Origin: Aquipuribacter nitratireducens
GTDB taxonomy: Bacteria; Actinomycetota; Actinomycetes; Actinomycetales; JBBAYJ01
Assembly: GCF_037860835.1 (NCBI RefSeq)
Contig: NZ_JBBEOG010000012.1
Location: forward strand, 1 to 64,000
Reading direction: 5' to 3'
Length of the DNA: 64,000 nucleotides
A program made the position numbers and the translations under genes. Each line of letters begins with the position of its first letter. Within the stretch, counting starts at the first letter, position 1. Shown in pieces: positions 290 through 5,140 of the stretch. Below the pieces are notes generated by a model. That model made no database searches, was not told where the DNA came from, and saw only the letters and a program-made list of their open reading frames with translations.

Positions 290-528
290 GCCCGCGTTCC
301 GGCCCACCCCCGATACGGAGCGGAGCGGGGCGGGTGCGTCCGGTTCCTCCGCTTACGCACCCTGCGCGAGGCAGGCGCGTCACCCGATCGCCGTACACGG
401 CCGTCAAGGGCGTGGGGAGCCGCGCCGACCAGGAAGGAGCCACGGGTCACGTTCCCCGCGGCCGAGCCGTCACCCGGCGGCTGACGAGCGGACAGGAGCC
501 GGTGGTGACAGTCGCGCAAGGAGCAGCG
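290..528. other. Intergenic spacer before the GGDEF-EAL gene
   Basis: Together with the hairpin before it, this is one of the longest spacers in the window. It probably holds the promoter of the GGDEF-EAL gene. I see no clear -35/-10 pair, no tRNA and no riboswitch-like structure. An open frame continues upstream of the chosen start in this spacer, but the translated part is Arg/Pro/Gly-rich and looks non-coding. Confidence 0.4.
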
Positions 529-2781
529 GTGCGCCGCCCGTGGCTGCTGCGCGCGCGACGCGTCACCGCGGTCGGCATGGTCGCCGTCATCGTCACCAGA
601 TGGGCGGCTGAACTGATCCAGGGTGGCAGCTCCTTCGCACCGACGCCGCCGATGCTCGTGTCGACACTCCTCGGAACGTTCTTCCTCCTGGCGCTCGGCT
701 ACTGCGTTGCGAGCGCCGTGGCCCTGCCCCGCCCCACCCCCCGGCTGTTGCTCGCCGGCGGCCTACTGCTGTGGGTGACCGGCTCGGCCACCGTCACGGC
801 CTCGGGCGAGGCCCACATGACCGACTTCCCCGCTCCCGGGGAGGGCTTCTTCCTCGCGTCCTACGTGCTTCTTGCTGCGGCTGTCCTGGGTGACGTGCCG
901 CGCCGGCGTGGCTGGCGGCCGTCGTCCGCCTGGCTCGACGCATTCGTCGTGTGCGCCGGGACAGTGAGCCTTGCGGGCGTCGCCCTCGTGACGCCCATCG
1001 GTGAACGAATCGCCGCCGAGGGCCTCGGCGCCCTGCTCGCGCTGCTCTACCCCATGCTCGACATCGCCCTGCTGGTCATCGTCCTCGCGCAGGTCGTGCT
1101 GCGCGGGCGCCGGCTCACCCTCTCGACCGGCGCCATCGTGACAGGGTTCCTGTGCCTCGCCGCTGCCGACAGCGTCTTCGTCCTGTCGACGTCCATGACG
1201 TACGTGACGAACGTCGTCGTCGACAGTCTGTACGGCCTCGCCTTCGGCGCCATCGTGGTCGGCCTGTGTGCGAGGCCGACCGTCAGCGGCGCCACGCTGC
1301 GCCCGAGGAGCCGGGGCACAGCCCTCGTGCTCGCCAGCCTCGGCGCCGTTGCCGTCCTGGCTCTCGACGAGGGACCCGGGCACTGGTACACAACCGTGCC
1401 GGCCATCATCACGCTTCTCGCCGCCGGCGCCCGCCTCGTCCTCGCCCTCCGCGAGGCTCAAGGCGCCGTCGAGGCCCGGCGGCTGTCCCTGACCGACGAC
1501 CTCACGGGCATCCCCAACCGCCGGGCGGTGCACGCCGAGCTGCGTCGCCGCATCACCGTCAGGAAGCCCGTCGCGCTCATGCTGCTCGATCTCGACGGCT
1601 TCAAGGAGGTCAACGACAGCCTCGGTCACGCCGCGGGGGACGCGGTCCTCATCGAGGTCGCCGCGAGGCTGGAGAAGTGGGCGGGTCACGAGCGGCTCGT
1701 GGCCCGGCTCGGCGGCGACGAGTTCGCCGTCGTCTGCCGCGATGATGACGAGGACCGTCTTCAGGGCCACGCTCGTGCGCTGCTCGACGAACTGCAGGCG
1801 CCCCTCGTCGTCGACGACATCACCGTGACCATGCGGACGTCCCTCGGGATCGCCGTCCACCGGGAGGGTGAGACGGAGGCGACCGACCTCATGCGGCAGG
1901 CCGACGTCGCGATGTACGACGCCAAGAACTCGCGCAGCGAGGTCGAGGTGTACGACGCGGCGCGCGACATGTTCTCCCGCGCACGCTTGGAGAACGTGTC
2001 CGACCTCCGCAGGGGCATCGACGACGGAGAGCTCGTCATCTGGTACCAGCCGCAGGTCGACGCCCTTACCCGCAGGGTCGTGGCGATGGAGGCGCTGGTC
2101 CGTTGGGAGCACCCGACCCGGGGCTTGCTCACGCCCATCTCCTTCCTGCCCGACGCCCGTCGGTCAGGCCTCATGACCGGCCTCACGCAGACGGTCGTGA
2201 CCTCGGTCGTCGAGGATGCACAGCGCTGGCGCCGACTGGGACTGGACTTCACGGTCAGCTTCAACTGCGCACCGCCGGAACTACTCGGCGGACAGGTACT
2301 TCCCTGCCTGTTCGACGCGCTGAGTCGAGTCGACCTGCCCGCGGAGGCCCTCCTCGTGGAGGTCACGGAGGACTCTTTCGTGGCGGACCCCGAACGCGCA
2401 CGGGAGGTGCTCGCAAAGCTGCGCGCCCACGGGGTCCAGACCGCGATCGACGACTACGGCACCGGGTTCTCCTCCCTCGCCTACCTCCGCGACCTACCGG
2501 TCCAGGAGCTCAAGATCGACCGCAGTTTCGTCTCCACCCTGTCGACGGACGTCCGCAGCCGGGTCATCGTCGACTCAACCCGCCAGATGGCGCAGGCGAT
2601 CGGCCTCCGCGTCGTGGCTGAAGGGGTCGAGGACGAGACGACGGCCGACGCCTTGGTCCGCATGGGCGTCGACGCCCTCCAGGGGTACGTCGTCGCGAGG
2701 CCGATGCCGTCAGGCGACGTGCTCGACTGGGTCGCCGGCTGGCACGCCCACCTCGACGAGGCGCGCGCCGGGGTGCTGTGA
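529..2781 (+). CDS. Membrane GGDEF-EAL cyclic-di-GMP protein
   Basis: This 750-residue protein probably makes or breaks down cyclic di-GMP at the membrane. Residues 1-310 contain about eight or nine hydrophobic helices. A GGDEF domain follows (LTDDLTGIPNRR near residue 321; intact ARLGGDEF near 395), then an EAL domain with an intact EAL motif near residue 520, the DDYGTGFSSL loop and VVAEGVED. Both catalytic signatures are present, so sequence alone does not give the net direction. No RxxD inhibitory site precedes GGDEF. The GTG at 529 was chosen because AAGGAG lies five bases upstream; the GTG at 505, after AGGAG, is an alternative. The 3' end overlaps the convergent GNAT gene by 72 bp. The oligoribonuclease at 7842, whose family finishes pGpG breakdown, is 5 kb away. 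Confidence 0.9.
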   Translation: MRRPWLLRARRVTAVGMVAVIVTRWAAELIQGGSSFAPTPPMLVSTLLGTFFLLALGYCVASAVALPRPTPRLLLAGGLLLWVTGSATVTASGEAHMTDFPAPGEGFFLASYVLLAAAVLGDVPRRRGWRPSSAWLDAFVVCAGTVSLAGVALVTPIGERIAAEGLGALLALLYPMLDIALLVIVLAQVVLRGRRLTLSTGAIVTGFLCLAAADSVFVLSTSMTYVTNVVVDSLYGLAFGAIVVGLCARPTVSGATLRPRSRGTALVLASLGAVAVLALDEGPGHWYTTVPAIITLLAAGARLVLALREAQGAVEARRLSLTDDLTGIPNRRAVHAELRRRITVRKPVALMLLDLDGFKEVNDSLGHAAGDAVLIEVAARLEKWAGHERLVARLGGDEFAVVCRDDDEDRLQGHARALLDELQAPLVVDDITVTMRTSLGIAVHREGETEATDLMRQADVAMYDAKNSRSEVEVYDAARDMFSRARLENVSDLRRGIDDGELVIWYQPQVDALTRRVVAMEALVRWEHPTRGLLTPISFLPDARRSGLMTGLTQTVVTSVVEDAQRWRRLGLDFTVSFNCAPPELLGGQVLPCLFDALSRVDLPAEALLVEVTEDSFVADPERAREVLAKLRAHGVQTAIDDYGTGFSSLAYLRDLPVQELKIDRSFVSTLSTDVRSRVIVDSTRQMAQAIGLRVVAEGVEDETTADALVRMGVDALQGYVVARPMPSGDVLDWVAGWHAHLDEARAGVL

Positions 2782-3531
2782 CGTCGTCACCGCGTCACGC
2801 AGGTCGAGGGTCCGAGGCCACACGTAGTCGCTGAGCGGCGGCAGCTCGATGTCACCGAGTCCCACGCCCATGGACATGAGCCGATGTGCCTCGGGCATGC
2901 GTCGACGCTGCTCGGCCATCATCGCGGCGAACGGCGCCACGACCGGCAGGCTGGCCGGAGAGCCGAGATACTCCGCGGGCGTCGTGCCCGCGATGGCGCG
3001 GTACTCGAGCCCGAATGTGCGAAGGAGGGCACGCACCCGCGTGTCGAGGATCGCGACCGTTGCGGACGCACCGTTGGCGCGCATGGTCTGGATGAGGCCG
3101 TGGAACAGCGCGGCGGACGCCAGCGCCGAGCGGCGCGTCCCCCGACGGACACTGATCGTCGTGACGTCCCACGTCGAGAGCGGGTCGACGCCCATGCGTT
3201 CGAGTGCTGCCACCGCGTCGACGCTCCAGGGCGCTGCGGCGCAGTCCTGGAACGTCTTGAGGCCTGCGGGGCCGGGAGCCGTCACACGGGTCGTCGCGAC
3301 GACGTCGCCTCGGTCGTCCACGAGGGAGATGAAGCGGCGCTGGGCGTCGTAGGCCCGGTACTCCGCGTCCAGCTGCTCCTGGGTGTTGCCGTACCGAGCG
3401 AAGAAGGCCCCGGCCTCGCACTCCAACGACGCTGCGAGCAGAGCACCGGTGGGGTCGACCACCAGCCGCGAGCGACCCGGCGACGTGTCCACCGGCACGT
3501 CGCTGTCCCGGTCGAGCGCGGCGACGCTCAT
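2710..3531 (-). CDS. GNAT-fold acyltransferase, LuxI/FeeM-like
   Basis: A 273-residue protein that I place in the wider GNAT/autoinducer-synthase fold by pattern only. Residues 40-90 hold FFARYGNTQEQLDAEYRAYD, then FISLVDDRGDVVATTRV, which resembles the D-x-D/YD and 'dG-vvG-aR' segments of LuxI and N-acyl amino acid synthases. A later block (WDVTTISVRRGTRRS, then LFHGLIQTMRANGASATV) resembles the 'E-SR-v' core and the acceptor helix. The start ATG overlaps the stop of the SAM-decarboxylase-like gene by one base (TGATG), so the two are translationally coupled. LuxI enzymes use SAM, which makes this partner suggestive. The substrate is unknown; an ordinary GNAT acetyltransferase remains possible. 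Confidence 0.6.
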   Translation of the reverse strand: MSVAALDRDSDVPVDTSPGRSRLVVDPTGALLAASLECEAGAFFARYGNTQEQLDAEYRAYDAQRRFISLVDDRGDVVATTRVTAPGPAGLKTFQDCAAAPWSVDAVAALERMGVDPLSTWDVTTISVRRGTRRSALASAALFHGLIQTMRANGASATVAILDTRVRALLRTFGLEYRAIAGTTPAEYLGSPASLPVVAPFAAMMAEQRRRMPEAHRLMSMGVGLGDIELPPLSDYVWPRTLDLRDAVTTSQHPGARLVEVGVPAGDPVEHVA

Positions 3532-3968
3532 CAGAACTCCTTCCAGACCGGCGCGCCACCGAAGTGGCGCGCGGCCAGGGCGACGGCGTCGCGCGCCTGG
3601 AACGGCTTGCATGCGTACACGTCGACGCTGAAGAACAGCAGCGGCTGGTCCCACGCGTAGAAGTGCGCCCCCGAGGTCTCCCAGTGGATCCAGCCCGCCC
3701 AGCCGTACAGCGGCGACTTGTGCGTGACCGGCTCGACCAGGGTCACCATCCCGATCGTGTCGCTCAGCTCTGTGAGGAACGCGCTGATGGCCTCCGCCGA
3801 GATGGGCGCATCGCAGTAGCCCTCGATGACGAGCCGCTGCCGGTGGATCATCGGTGCGAGGTCGGGCATCGGCTCCGCCGGCGAGACCCGCAGGAGCGAG
3901 CCGGGCGAGGGCACGTGCCCGGGCACGGTCGTGGGGGCGAGGACGGGGGACGCGGACTGCTGGCTCAC
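3531..3968 (-). CDS. S-adenosylmethionine decarboxylase-like protein
   Basis: A 145-residue protein resembling small prokaryotic SpeD proteins, pyruvoyl enzymes that self-cleave and decarboxylate SAM. Residues 50-90 (RLVIEGYCDAP and following) match the N-terminal strand and helix. The segment WETSGAHFYAW matches the region around the self-cleavage serine (ESH...H in classical enzymes), and FFSVDVYACKPF matches the 'aavDvftCg' block with its cysteine. The spacing around the candidate Ser/Thr differs from classical SpeD by about one residue, so altered chemistry is possible; some SpeD homologues are known to act on other amino acids. The GTG at 3968 was chosen for the GGAG five bases upstream. 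No spermidine synthase gene is adjacent. It is the first gene of a two-gene operon. Confidence 0.65.
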   Translation of the reverse strand: MSQQSASPVLAPTTVPGHVPSPGSLLRVSPAEPMPDLAPMIHRQRLVIEGYCDAPISAEAISAFLTELSDTIGMVTLVEPVTHKSPLYGWAGWIHWETSGAHFYAWDQPLLFFSVDVYACKPFQARDAVALAARHFGGAPVWKEF

Positions 3969-3999
3969 ACGGTCTCCAGAAGAGAAGGCGGGGTGACGA

Positions 4000-4013
4000 A
4001 CAGCTCGAACTGT
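4000..4013 (-). promoter_or_regulatory. Imperfect dyad upstream of the SpeD-like operon
   Basis: ACAGCTCGAACTGT forms a 14-bp dyad with one mismatched pair, 32 bp upstream of the GTG start. It lies in the 176-bp spacer that must carry the operon promoter. It could be an operator, but it does not fit a known LexA or lux box. Confidence 0.25.
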
Positions 4014-4144
4014 AGAAAGCAACCACTCAGCGTGTCCGCCAAGGCGCGGTCAGTTACTCCCTTCGGGAAGCACCCAGTCCCCCGATGTGACCGTCAAGGC
4101 ACGCTCGGTAACGGTTCGGTTGCTCCGCCCGGGTGACGGCGGGC

Positions 4145-5140
4145 TCAACCGCGCGGGCGGAGCCGCACGTTCGGCAGCTCGGGCGCACGCAGCCACGAGT
4201 CGTCGGCCCAGCCGGGCACGACGCCGAAGCGGTCGTCGCGGGACTGCCACGCCTCGCGGGAGGCGACGACCTCGTCGTGGGTCCGCCCGACGAAGTTCCA
4301 CCACATGACGAGCCGCTCCCCGAACGGCGCCCCCCCGAGCAGGAGGAGGGTCGACGGCTCGGTGACGACGACCTCGACGTCGTCGCGGTCGTCGCCGAGG
4401 TCGACGAGGTCCCCCGCCCCGGGCGCGGCCTCCTCGGGCGCGCCCACGACCGTCGCCGCCCCGTCGACGAGCAGCAGCCCGTGCTCGAAGGCCGGGTCGA
4501 GCGGCAGCCGCAGCCGCACCGGCCCGTCGGTGCGCAGCTCGGCACCGACGAGCGGGGTGTAGGTGGCGGCCGGGGAGGTGAGGCCGTCGAACGTGCCGGC
4601 GAGGACGGTGGTGCGCACCGTCGTGCCGTCGACGTCGGCGGTGCGGACCGGGAGCTCGGCGTGGTGCTCGAAGTGCGGCGCCTGGTGGCGGTGCTCCTCC
4701 GGAAGCGCCACCCACAGCTGGACCCCGTGGAGCGGGTCGCCGCCGTCGAGGGACTGCTCGCCGTGGGCGATGCCGTGCCCGCTCGTCATGATGTTGAGCT
4801 GGCCCGGGCGGATCGTCGCCTCGGAGCCGACGGAGTCGTGGTGCAGCGCCTCGCCGCCGACGAGCCAGGTCACGGTCTGCAGCCCGGTGTGGGGGTGCGG
4901 CGGCACCACCATGACCCGCTCGCCGGTAGCCGGTCCGTAGTGGTCGACGAAGCACCACGCACCGATCGTCGTGCGCTCGCGCGACGGCAGGGTGCGTCGC
5001 ACCCGCATCGCTCGCGGGCCACCGAGGGGCACGTCCCGCGCCCGCAGCACCCGCGCGAGCGGGCCGGTGCCGGCGTGCGCCGCGAGCTCCCCTCCCTCCC
5101 CGATGTCGGTGGGGCTCGGGGCGGTGTCGAGGTTGCTCAC
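4145..5140 (-). CDS. Pirin family protein (cupin)
   Basis: A 331-residue bicupin. The N-terminal cupin carries the metal-binding residues of pirins: PHPHTGLQTVTWL around residue 82 and TSGHGIAHGEQS around residue 119. Some pirins act as quercetin 2,3-dioxygenases and others as redox-sensing co-regulators; the sequence does not separate these. The start is a GTG without a clear ribosome-binding site. The spacer behind its stop holds the promoter of the SpeD-like operon. Confidence 0.9.
   Translation of the reverse strand: MSNLDTAPSPTDIGEGGELAAHAGTGPLARVLRARDVPLGGPRAMRVRRTLPSRERTTIGAWCFVDHYGPATGERVMVVPPHPHTGLQTVTWLVGGEALHHDSVGSEATIRPGQLNIMTSGHGIAHGEQSLDGGDPLHGVQLWVALPEEHRHQAPHFEHHAELPVRTADVDGTTVRTTVLAGTFDGLTSPAATYTPLVGAELRTDGPVRLRLPLDPAFEHGLLLVDGAATVVGAPEEAAPGAGDLVDLGDDRDDVEVVVTEPSTLLLLGGAPFGERLVMWWNFVGRTHDEVVASREAWQSRDDRFGVVPGWADDSWLRAPELPNVRLRPRG

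Follow-up and report, generated by a model that had tools for sequence, protein, structure and literature searches.

A SpeD-like protein coupled to a LuxI/FeeM-fold acyltransferase beside a membrane GGDEF-EAL protein: a candidate chemical-signaling module in Actinomycetota and Saccharibacteria

What would a bacterium make with a gene that resembles S-adenosylmethionine (SAM, or AdoMet) decarboxylase, coupled to one that resembles an autoinducer synthase and placed beside a cyclic-di-GMP enzyme? The question is raised by a locus of Aquipuribacter nitratireducens, a member of the Actinomycetota, on contig NZ_JBBEOG010000012.1 (assembly GCF_037860835.1); the window is the whole stretch analyzed, the first 64,000 nucleotides of this contig. 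Here a gene for a SpeD-like protein runs into a gene for an acyltransferase of the LuxI/FeeM type, and a gene for a membrane GGDEF-EAL protein converges on the two. The answer proposed, and considered reasonably probable, is that the locus is a three-part chemical-signaling module of a decarboxylase, an N-acyltransferase, and a sensor. The SpeD-like protein most likely decarboxylates an amino acid, judging by its residues and its gene neighbors, and SAM is probably not the substrate.

The best evidence comes from loci in which the SpeD-like gene was not seen. When the acyltransferase alignment was run against 394 genomes of the class, 11 were positive, 8 of them also with the SpeD variant; in an equally large sample of the class the variant is present in nine genomes, the ninth being G170. 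In the other three acyltransferase genomes (G077, G293, and G216), SpeD had no match in the stretches read, and a membrane GGDEF-EAL gene of the same type adjoins the acyltransferase in 3/3, with G216 ending at a contig end. For example, the locus of G293 (L151) has, in order, a pyridoxal phosphate (PLP) decarboxylase, a membrane GGDEF-EAL protein, and the acyltransferase, with an ATGA overlap at both junctions. Its decarboxylase matches Pyridoxal_deC at 167.7 bits, and the PDB sequence nearest to the PLP enzyme is the pyridoxal-dependent decarboxylase 4obu, a match that does not fix the substrate.

The family of G293, taken as Nocardioidaceae, has the acyltransferase in 17 of 178 genomes, and a membrane GGDEF-EAL gene of one type stands at all 17 loci, which were read with all stop-to-stop open reading frames (ORFs). 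At 13 of these, PLP decarboxylase, GGDEF-EAL, and acyltransferase genes follow in that order on one strand. The other 4 carry SpeD, intact in three (L007, L014, and L082) and truncated in one (L183), and both decarboxylase types together occur at 0/17 loci in the stretches read. In the SpeD loci of this family, SpeD and the acyltransferase are followed by the GGDEF-EAL gene, either convergent or, in L184, in line. The truncated gene of L183 (5440-5658, minus strand) is a SpeD-like remnant without the active-site core, next to the acyltransferase and GGDEF-EAL gene, and is possibly a loss in progress. A phylum sample of 316 genomes held three strong acyltransferase genomes (A. nitratireducens included), all with SpeD; weak matches to the acyltransferase profile in six genomes of another family (f76) were not counted, being probable general GNATs. 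The alternation of two unrelated decarboxylases next to a constant acyltransferase and type of sensor argues for a SpeD-like protein that decarboxylates an amino acid and so provides the amine.

How firmly are the SpeD variant and the acyltransferase tied to each other? A search of 59 genomes of relatives found the variant in three, namely the window's own genome and two from another family of the same order, which keep the neighborhood of SpeD, acyltransferase, and EAL protein; it was absent from two other genomes of the own genus in that search. When one genome of each species was scanned with the SpeD alignment, 80 more loci were added, the best 80 of 121 confirmed relatives, selected by SpeD together with the peptide patterns WAGWIHW and AHFYAWD. 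Loci selected in this way say nothing about how often the acyltransferase stands alone, which is addressed by the class, family, and phylum samples led by the acyltransferase. Among the resulting 82 loci outside the window, the acyltransferase is present at 74: downstream at 71 by the first profile, at two more (L010 and L045) once the profile was rebuilt, and at L042 with a GGDEF-EAL gene in between. Co-occurrence of the two genes thus exceeds chance, and the neighborhood, whose absence from related genomes had been named beforehand as a possible refutation, was found conserved across them. The spacing from the SpeD stop to the acyltransferase ranges from -11 to +172 bases, with starts picked automatically; a 1-base overlap (25/73 rows) and +1 (16/73 rows) are commonest, the window being counted twice. 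A mirror-tree comparison of the two proteins over 59 loci, with three short loci excluded, gave r 0.73, against a maximum of 0.17 over 2000 permutations.

The pair is also widely distributed. By their labels, the Actinomycetota hosts among the 80 loci of the scan are Actinotalea, Blastococcus, Modestobacter, Actinoplanes, Mycolicibacterium, and Acidimicrobiia, and the other hosts are Saccharibacteria and single bins labeled Peregrinibacteria, Uhrbacteria, Acidobacteria, Micavibrio, and Saprospiraceae. A scan of genome contigs with the acyltransferase alone found no relatives, in contrast to the scan with the SpeD alignment. By eye, a FolD-like gene recurs near SpeD (L010, L025, L030, L036, L048, L053, L055, and L058), which makes genuine Saccharibacteria contigs more likely than binning errors. 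Two bins have two copies of the SpeD variant each (L017, L081, L022, and L029), one with and one without the acyltransferase. In the Micavibrio bin (L070, 7345-9620), SpeD is followed by a 255-residue protein with no Pfam match and then by a protein that by eye is aminotransferase-like, neighbors that suggest a different pathway context.

The third part of the proposed module is the sensor. Counting the window, 50 of 83 loci have a GGDEF and/or EAL protein, so that the GGDEF-EAL neighbor is frequently kept, and 11 have a histidine kinase. The GGDEF-EAL gene is convergent and behind the acyltransferase in Actinotalea-type loci; in most Geodermatophilaceae loci it runs in the same direction, with its end at the SpeD ORF or shortly before it. 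By simple hydropathy, the window's protein has about 10 hydrophobic segments at its N-terminus, and 45 of the 47 proteins with a GGDEF hit have at least 5 before the GGDEF domain. Homology links these membrane regions across the different arrangements at most actinobacterial loci (hhalign probability 97.8 to 99.5), with L084 not matched. A PAS domain precedes GGDEF in L035 and L084 according to Pfam, and L069 and L075 resemble L035 by eye.

The kinase takes the place of the GGDEF-EAL protein at ten Saccharibacteria loci and in Mycolicibacterium sphagni (L027). It starts 843 to 940 bases after SpeD, directly behind the acyltransferase, in 10/11 loci; in L048, which has no acyltransferase, it starts 2.1 kb after SpeD. 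The L027 kinase has HisKA_7TM, GAF, HisKA, and HATPase domains, and HisKA and HATPase were found in the L010 kinase and in a further kinase at L036. Genes read by us as response-regulator-like recur at the Saccharibacteria loci, and L030 has the order regulator, SpeD, acyltransferase, kinase.

Related loci were reduced by grouping 71 aligned SpeD rows at 80% identity into 45 groups, each scored positive if any member was. GGDEF/EAL is found at 22 of the groups and a kinase at 11, and a sensor accompanies 32/37 groups with the acyltransferase versus 1/8 without it (Fisher p 1.2e-4). The six-member Actinoplanes group is sensor-positive through L084 alone, and L056, where a GGDEF gene lies 5.2 kb from the pair, was not scored as a sensor locus. 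Of the five acyltransferase groups that have no sensor, three (L047, L052, and L083) come from stretches that stop within the acyltransferase or soon after it, and the other two (L065 and L074) belong to Micromonosporaceae. As a measure of chance, the window's own genome has 29 above-cut-off GGDEF matches in 3.83 Mb, or about 1 per 130 kb, so about one-tenth of 14-kb stretches would hold one by accident.

The placement of the sensor also bears on an unlikely alternative, in which the N-acyl amine is a membrane lipid, a surfactant, or an antibiotic and the GGDEF-EAL protein or kinase merely regulates the pair. FeeM itself is an N-acyl amino acid synthase (2g0b; PMC9654057, in the text available), and 11 of 12 Micromonosporaceae pairs have no adjoining sensor. 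However, the GGDEF-EAL gene stays by the acyltransferase at loci without SpeD too (the 3/3 and 17/17 above, with one locus in both), in varied orientations, and two unrelated sensor types are in use.

Is the SpeD-like protein still a SAM decarboxylase? Its structural model (pLDDT 96.8) has T. maritima AdoMet decarboxylase (AdoMetDC; 1vr7) as its top match, with Z 14.0 and 2.4 Å over 105 residues, followed by A. aeolicus AdoMetDC (2iii; Z 13.0) and human spermine synthase (Z 10.0); the T. brucei AdoMetDC–prozyme heterodimer is also among the structural matches. Searches of PDB sequences with the SpeD alignments and with the single protein did not find AdoMetDC; the alignments gave unrelated matches, one best at E 0.00077 to repeat proteins. 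Residue equivalences to T. maritima rest on sequence alignments, for which the hhalign comparison has a probability of only 1.1. With this limit, S99, G100, H102, Y104, W106, D116, Y118, and C120 are invariant in the 83 sequences of the variant, and position 98 is Thr in 78/83. Against T. maritima, all 16 representatives have H68 changed to Tyr, H64 to Gly, S55 to Ala, and F49, which we take to be an AdoMet-site residue, to Ser. The position of E72, presumably the glutamate that contacts ribose, is Q, K, R, or D in 14/16. Such a glutamate, at the end of the histidine-bearing strand, touches the ribose in AdoMetDC (PMC1282579, in the text available), and S63, H68, and C83 are described as essential for T. 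maritima self-processing (PMC10407285, in the text available).

Position 68 is His in 40/41 rows outside the variant, the exception being L098, itself a divergent variant; His68 is kept in SpeDC-like rows and is Tyr in the variant. In the tree, the SpeD variant lies on one side of a single branch (18 rows, L093 and L098 included; support 100/99). By sequence, then, the SpeD-like protein is a clade of its own that keeps the pyruvoyl serine and the catalytic cysteine and has changed residues at the AdoMet site. In genome G170 (L093 and L107), a divergent variant with SGISLYVW directly follows an EAL-domain gene, and no acyltransferase was found in the stretch read. Weak SpeD hits were not counted: L099 is a single SpeDC-like gene, and L100 to L103, from one actinobacterial family, are tandem SpeD-like genes (one of the ETSSITGHF type) beside genes that look spermidine-synthase-like and aminotransferase-like by eye. 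Another divergent SpeD type (ESHVSIHTYADDGK) occurs in several genomes of family f76 (L127, L128, and L131 to L137).

The acyltransferase was predicted from its sequence to follow the LuxI/FeeM pattern, and the model (pLDDT 87.7) agrees. FeeM (2g0b) matches it with Z 18.1 and 2.6 Å over 181 residues, and FeeM and LasI (Z 16.1) head the VIA-align ranking, before BjaI (15.4), RpaI (15.3), and an ordinary GNAT, 5jph (15.0 over 142 residues). In these model comparisons FeeM has a clear lead over ordinary GNATs and LasI a small one, and BjaI and RpaI are level with them; ordered by Foldseek E-value, two putative acetyltransferases and NAT10 rank before FeeM. By the VIA-align ranking, the enzyme also escapes the other refutation named beforehand, a fold placing it among ordinary acetyltransferases. 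At E 0.01, 9 of 62 acyltransferases match Autoind_synth (best 2.8e-5) and 3 match FeeM. E39, F43, and R82 are invariant in the 62. The place of LasI Arg104 is Thr in 56/62 and Ser in 5/62, and that of LasI Trp33 is Asn in 60/62; these equivalences are probable, not proven, since the LasI alignment is weak (E 0.33, PDB profile search). Both residues belong to the LasI active site (PMC9654057, Table 1, in the text available). Because these two places and the adenosine site and H68 of SpeD have changed, both proteins look, at the level of residues, like family members that moved away from SAM.

The sequence-only reading had suggested SAM or decarboxylated SAM as the substrate, and this part is not supported. 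Under that proposal, decarboxylated SAM would be the product of the SpeD-like protein, and either it or SAM itself would be acylated by the LuxI-like enzyme to a homoserine-lactone-like or acyl-aminopropyl signal. The SpeD and LuxI folds favor it, as does the genome's lack of a spermidine synthase match. It is made improbable by the changed H68 and adenosine-site residues, by Thr or Ser at the Arg104 place in 61/62 acyltransferases (with the weak alignment just mentioned), and by the 13 related loci with a PLP amino-acid decarboxylase and no SpeD. We know of no PLP enzyme that decarboxylates SAM. Least probable of all is a catalytically dead, prozyme-like SpeD protein that only stabilizes or activates the acyltransferase, with the amine coming from elsewhere, for which the T. 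brucei prozyme is a precedent and the H68 to Tyr and S55 to Ala changes speak, but against which stand the invariant Ser99 and Cys120 (83/83) and the true decarboxylase family found in its stead at 13 loci.

In the preferred reading, a decarboxylase–acyltransferase–sensor module, the SpeD-like protein would cleave itself at Thr98-Ser99, forming a pyruvoyl group, and would turn an amino acid, not SAM, into an amine. A pyruvoyl or PLP enzyme requires a free alpha-amine, so decarboxylation would precede acylation. The coupled LuxI/FeeM-type enzyme would then join an acyl group from a thioester to the amine to give an N-acyl amine. This small N-acyl amide, diffusing or in the membrane, could be the cue for the polytopic N-terminal region of the GGDEF-EAL protein, and the protein would in turn set the cyclic-di-GMP level. 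A membrane histidine kinase would act as the sensor instead in Saccharibacteria and Mycolicibacterium sphagni.

Several points weigh against this module. Eight SpeD loci lack the acyltransferase (L017, L018, L031, L038, L048, L061, L070, and L081), and the exchange of His68 for Tyr means that self-processing may fail or be altered. Gene order differs between the PLP and SpeD loci, so it is content that alternates and not position. The 13 PLP loci come from related genomes in three genera, and a SpeD genome is found in one of these genera (g156) as well; this points to one or a few events, not thirteen. One locus (L150) has the acyltransferase and GGDEF-EAL gene, and neither decarboxylase was found in the stretch read. 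The Micromonosporaceae loci without an adjoining sensor count against a strict link between pair and sensor, and a shared sensor domain was sought between the kinase and GGDEF-EAL sensor regions without detectable homology. Saccharibacteria are thought to have no fatty-acid synthesis, which puts the acyl donor there in doubt. Product, secretion, and response are predictions from genes.

In the window itself (Table 1), the sequence bears out the TGATG junction between the 145-residue SpeD-like protein and the 273-residue protein; the last base of the TGA is the first base of the ATG, so one base is shared. GGAG lies five bases 5' of the SpeD-like GTG start, and an alternative in-frame ATG at 3869 would give a 112-residue protein starting where conservation starts. 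The SpeD-like protein matches AdoMet_dc in Pfam at 30.2 bits (cut-off 25). The acyltransferase falls below the cut-offs of Autoind_synth (13.1 bits versus 24) and FeeM (12.8 bits versus 27), and in NCBIfam neither protein receives an above-cut-off name. No spermidine synthase had been seen near the pair, and PF01564 indeed has no match in the window's genome; the control search found it in 11/14 genomes. An AdoMet_dc search of the genome was likewise empty, but even the SpeD gene of the window escaped it, so its sensitivity to variants of this kind is too low. The 3' ends of the acyltransferase and convergent GGDEF-EAL genes share 72 bases (2710-2781). A pirin-family gene (4145-5140, minus strand) lies upstream of the pair on the same strand and was set aside; inspection by eye of the 1.5 kb read upstream of SpeD in L002 and L003 showed no such gene.

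Table 1. Positions of the locus features within the window
Feature	Position	Strand	Details
TGATG stop-start overlap	3529..3533	-	Joins the SpeD-like and acyltransferase genes; read from sequence
SpeD-like decarboxylase gene (putative)	3531..3968	-	145 aa, GTG start, TGA stop
Ser99 codon	3672..3674	-	Corresponds by alignment to pyruvoyl-forming Ser63 of T. maritima AdoMetDC; 83/83
Tyr104 codon	3657..3659	-	Occupies the place of T. maritima His68; 83/83
Cys120 codon	3609..3611	-	Corresponds by alignment to Cys83; 83/83
LuxI/FeeM-fold N-acyltransferase gene (putative)	2710..3531	-	273 aa, ATG start; fold from model
Membrane GGDEF-EAL gene	334..2781	+	Convergent neighbor; GTG start as listed, real start may be later
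Polytopic N-terminal membrane domain, candidate ligand sensor	511..1473	+	Limits approximate; hydropathy
GGDEF domain	1489..1935	+	136.5 bits; motif intact
EAL domain	2002..2703	+	220.5 bits; EALVR in translation

Each part of the module is of a known kind; the module itself is undescribed as far as searches of open-access papers show. None of the papers that these searches listed described the pairing or the module, in line with the earlier statement that no such system was known. It is a tentative suggestion, somewhat less than evenly weighted, that N-acyl-amine autoinducers constitute a new class of communication among bacteria, with a decarboxylase and a LuxI-fold enzyme as their makers and a membrane cyclic-di-GMP enzyme as their direct reader. 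If so, a cell–cell signal would be wired to a second messenger without LuxR or a kinase, and a signal chemistry and a receptor type would be added for Actinomycetota and Saccharibacteria, groups whose communication is little known. Saccharibacteria live on actinobacteria, and with a kinase-type sister version of the module in the former, a chemical language shared by episymbiont and host could exist. The module would also be a genetically compact signal source that may set cyclic-di-GMP. Two further gains are a SpeD clade changed at a processing residue and an example of a gene module in which decarboxylases from two unrelated families substitute for one another.

How does the proposed module compare with known systems? 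In Vibrio, NspS-MbaA senses polyamines through a membrane GGDEF-EAL protein, with free polyamine as the cue and a periplasmic binding protein needed. Both would have such a protein as the reader of an amine-type cue; unlike the window, NspS-MbaA has no adjoining synthase pair. SpeDA and SpeDC are neofunctionalized SpeD proteins that use arginine or ornithine and have polyamine-gene neighbors; the diagnostic residues of SpeDC are Gln, Thr, Phe, and Tyr (PMC10407285, in the text available). Like the window's protein, they occur in the absence of spermidine synthase, keep the pyruvoyl serine and the cysteine, and are present in candidate phyla, according to the same text. Unlike them, the window's variant has H68 changed to Tyr and H64 to Gly, forms one clade of its own, and neighbors an acyltransferase and a sensor instead of polyamine genes; the main text on SpeDA and SpeDC, in the part available, makes no mention of an acyltransferase or GNAT.

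On the acyltransferase side, FeeM and the long-chain N-acyl amino acid synthases include the top structural match (Z 18.1), and FeeM, like the window's enzyme, has no equivalent of Arg104 (Gln97 by residue order, in our reading of the available text of PMC9654057). Unlike FeeM, the window's acyltransferase is below the Pfam FeeM cut-off, and its partner decarboxylase suggests an amine, not an amino acid, as the acceptor. The luxI genes of Actinomycetota are reported to be solitary, with one in Salinispora lying among sensor-kinase genes, and the available text of that source (PMC13136126) makes no mention of a decarboxylase or cyclic-di-GMP. LuxI-type synthases such as LasI, BjaI, and RpaI, together with their receptors, share with the window the acyltransferase fold (Z 15 to 16), a small synthase gene by a sensor gene, and likely an acyl-amide product. 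Synthase-like and sensor-like genes stand side by side, and the GGDEF-EAL protein would be the putative receptor of a possible quorum-sensing system. The window differs from the LuxI systems in that its acyltransferase is below the Autoind_synth cut-off with the Arg104 and Trp33 places changed, its synthase has a decarboxylase as partner, and the neighbor is a membrane GGDEF-EAL protein or, in the sister version, a kinase.

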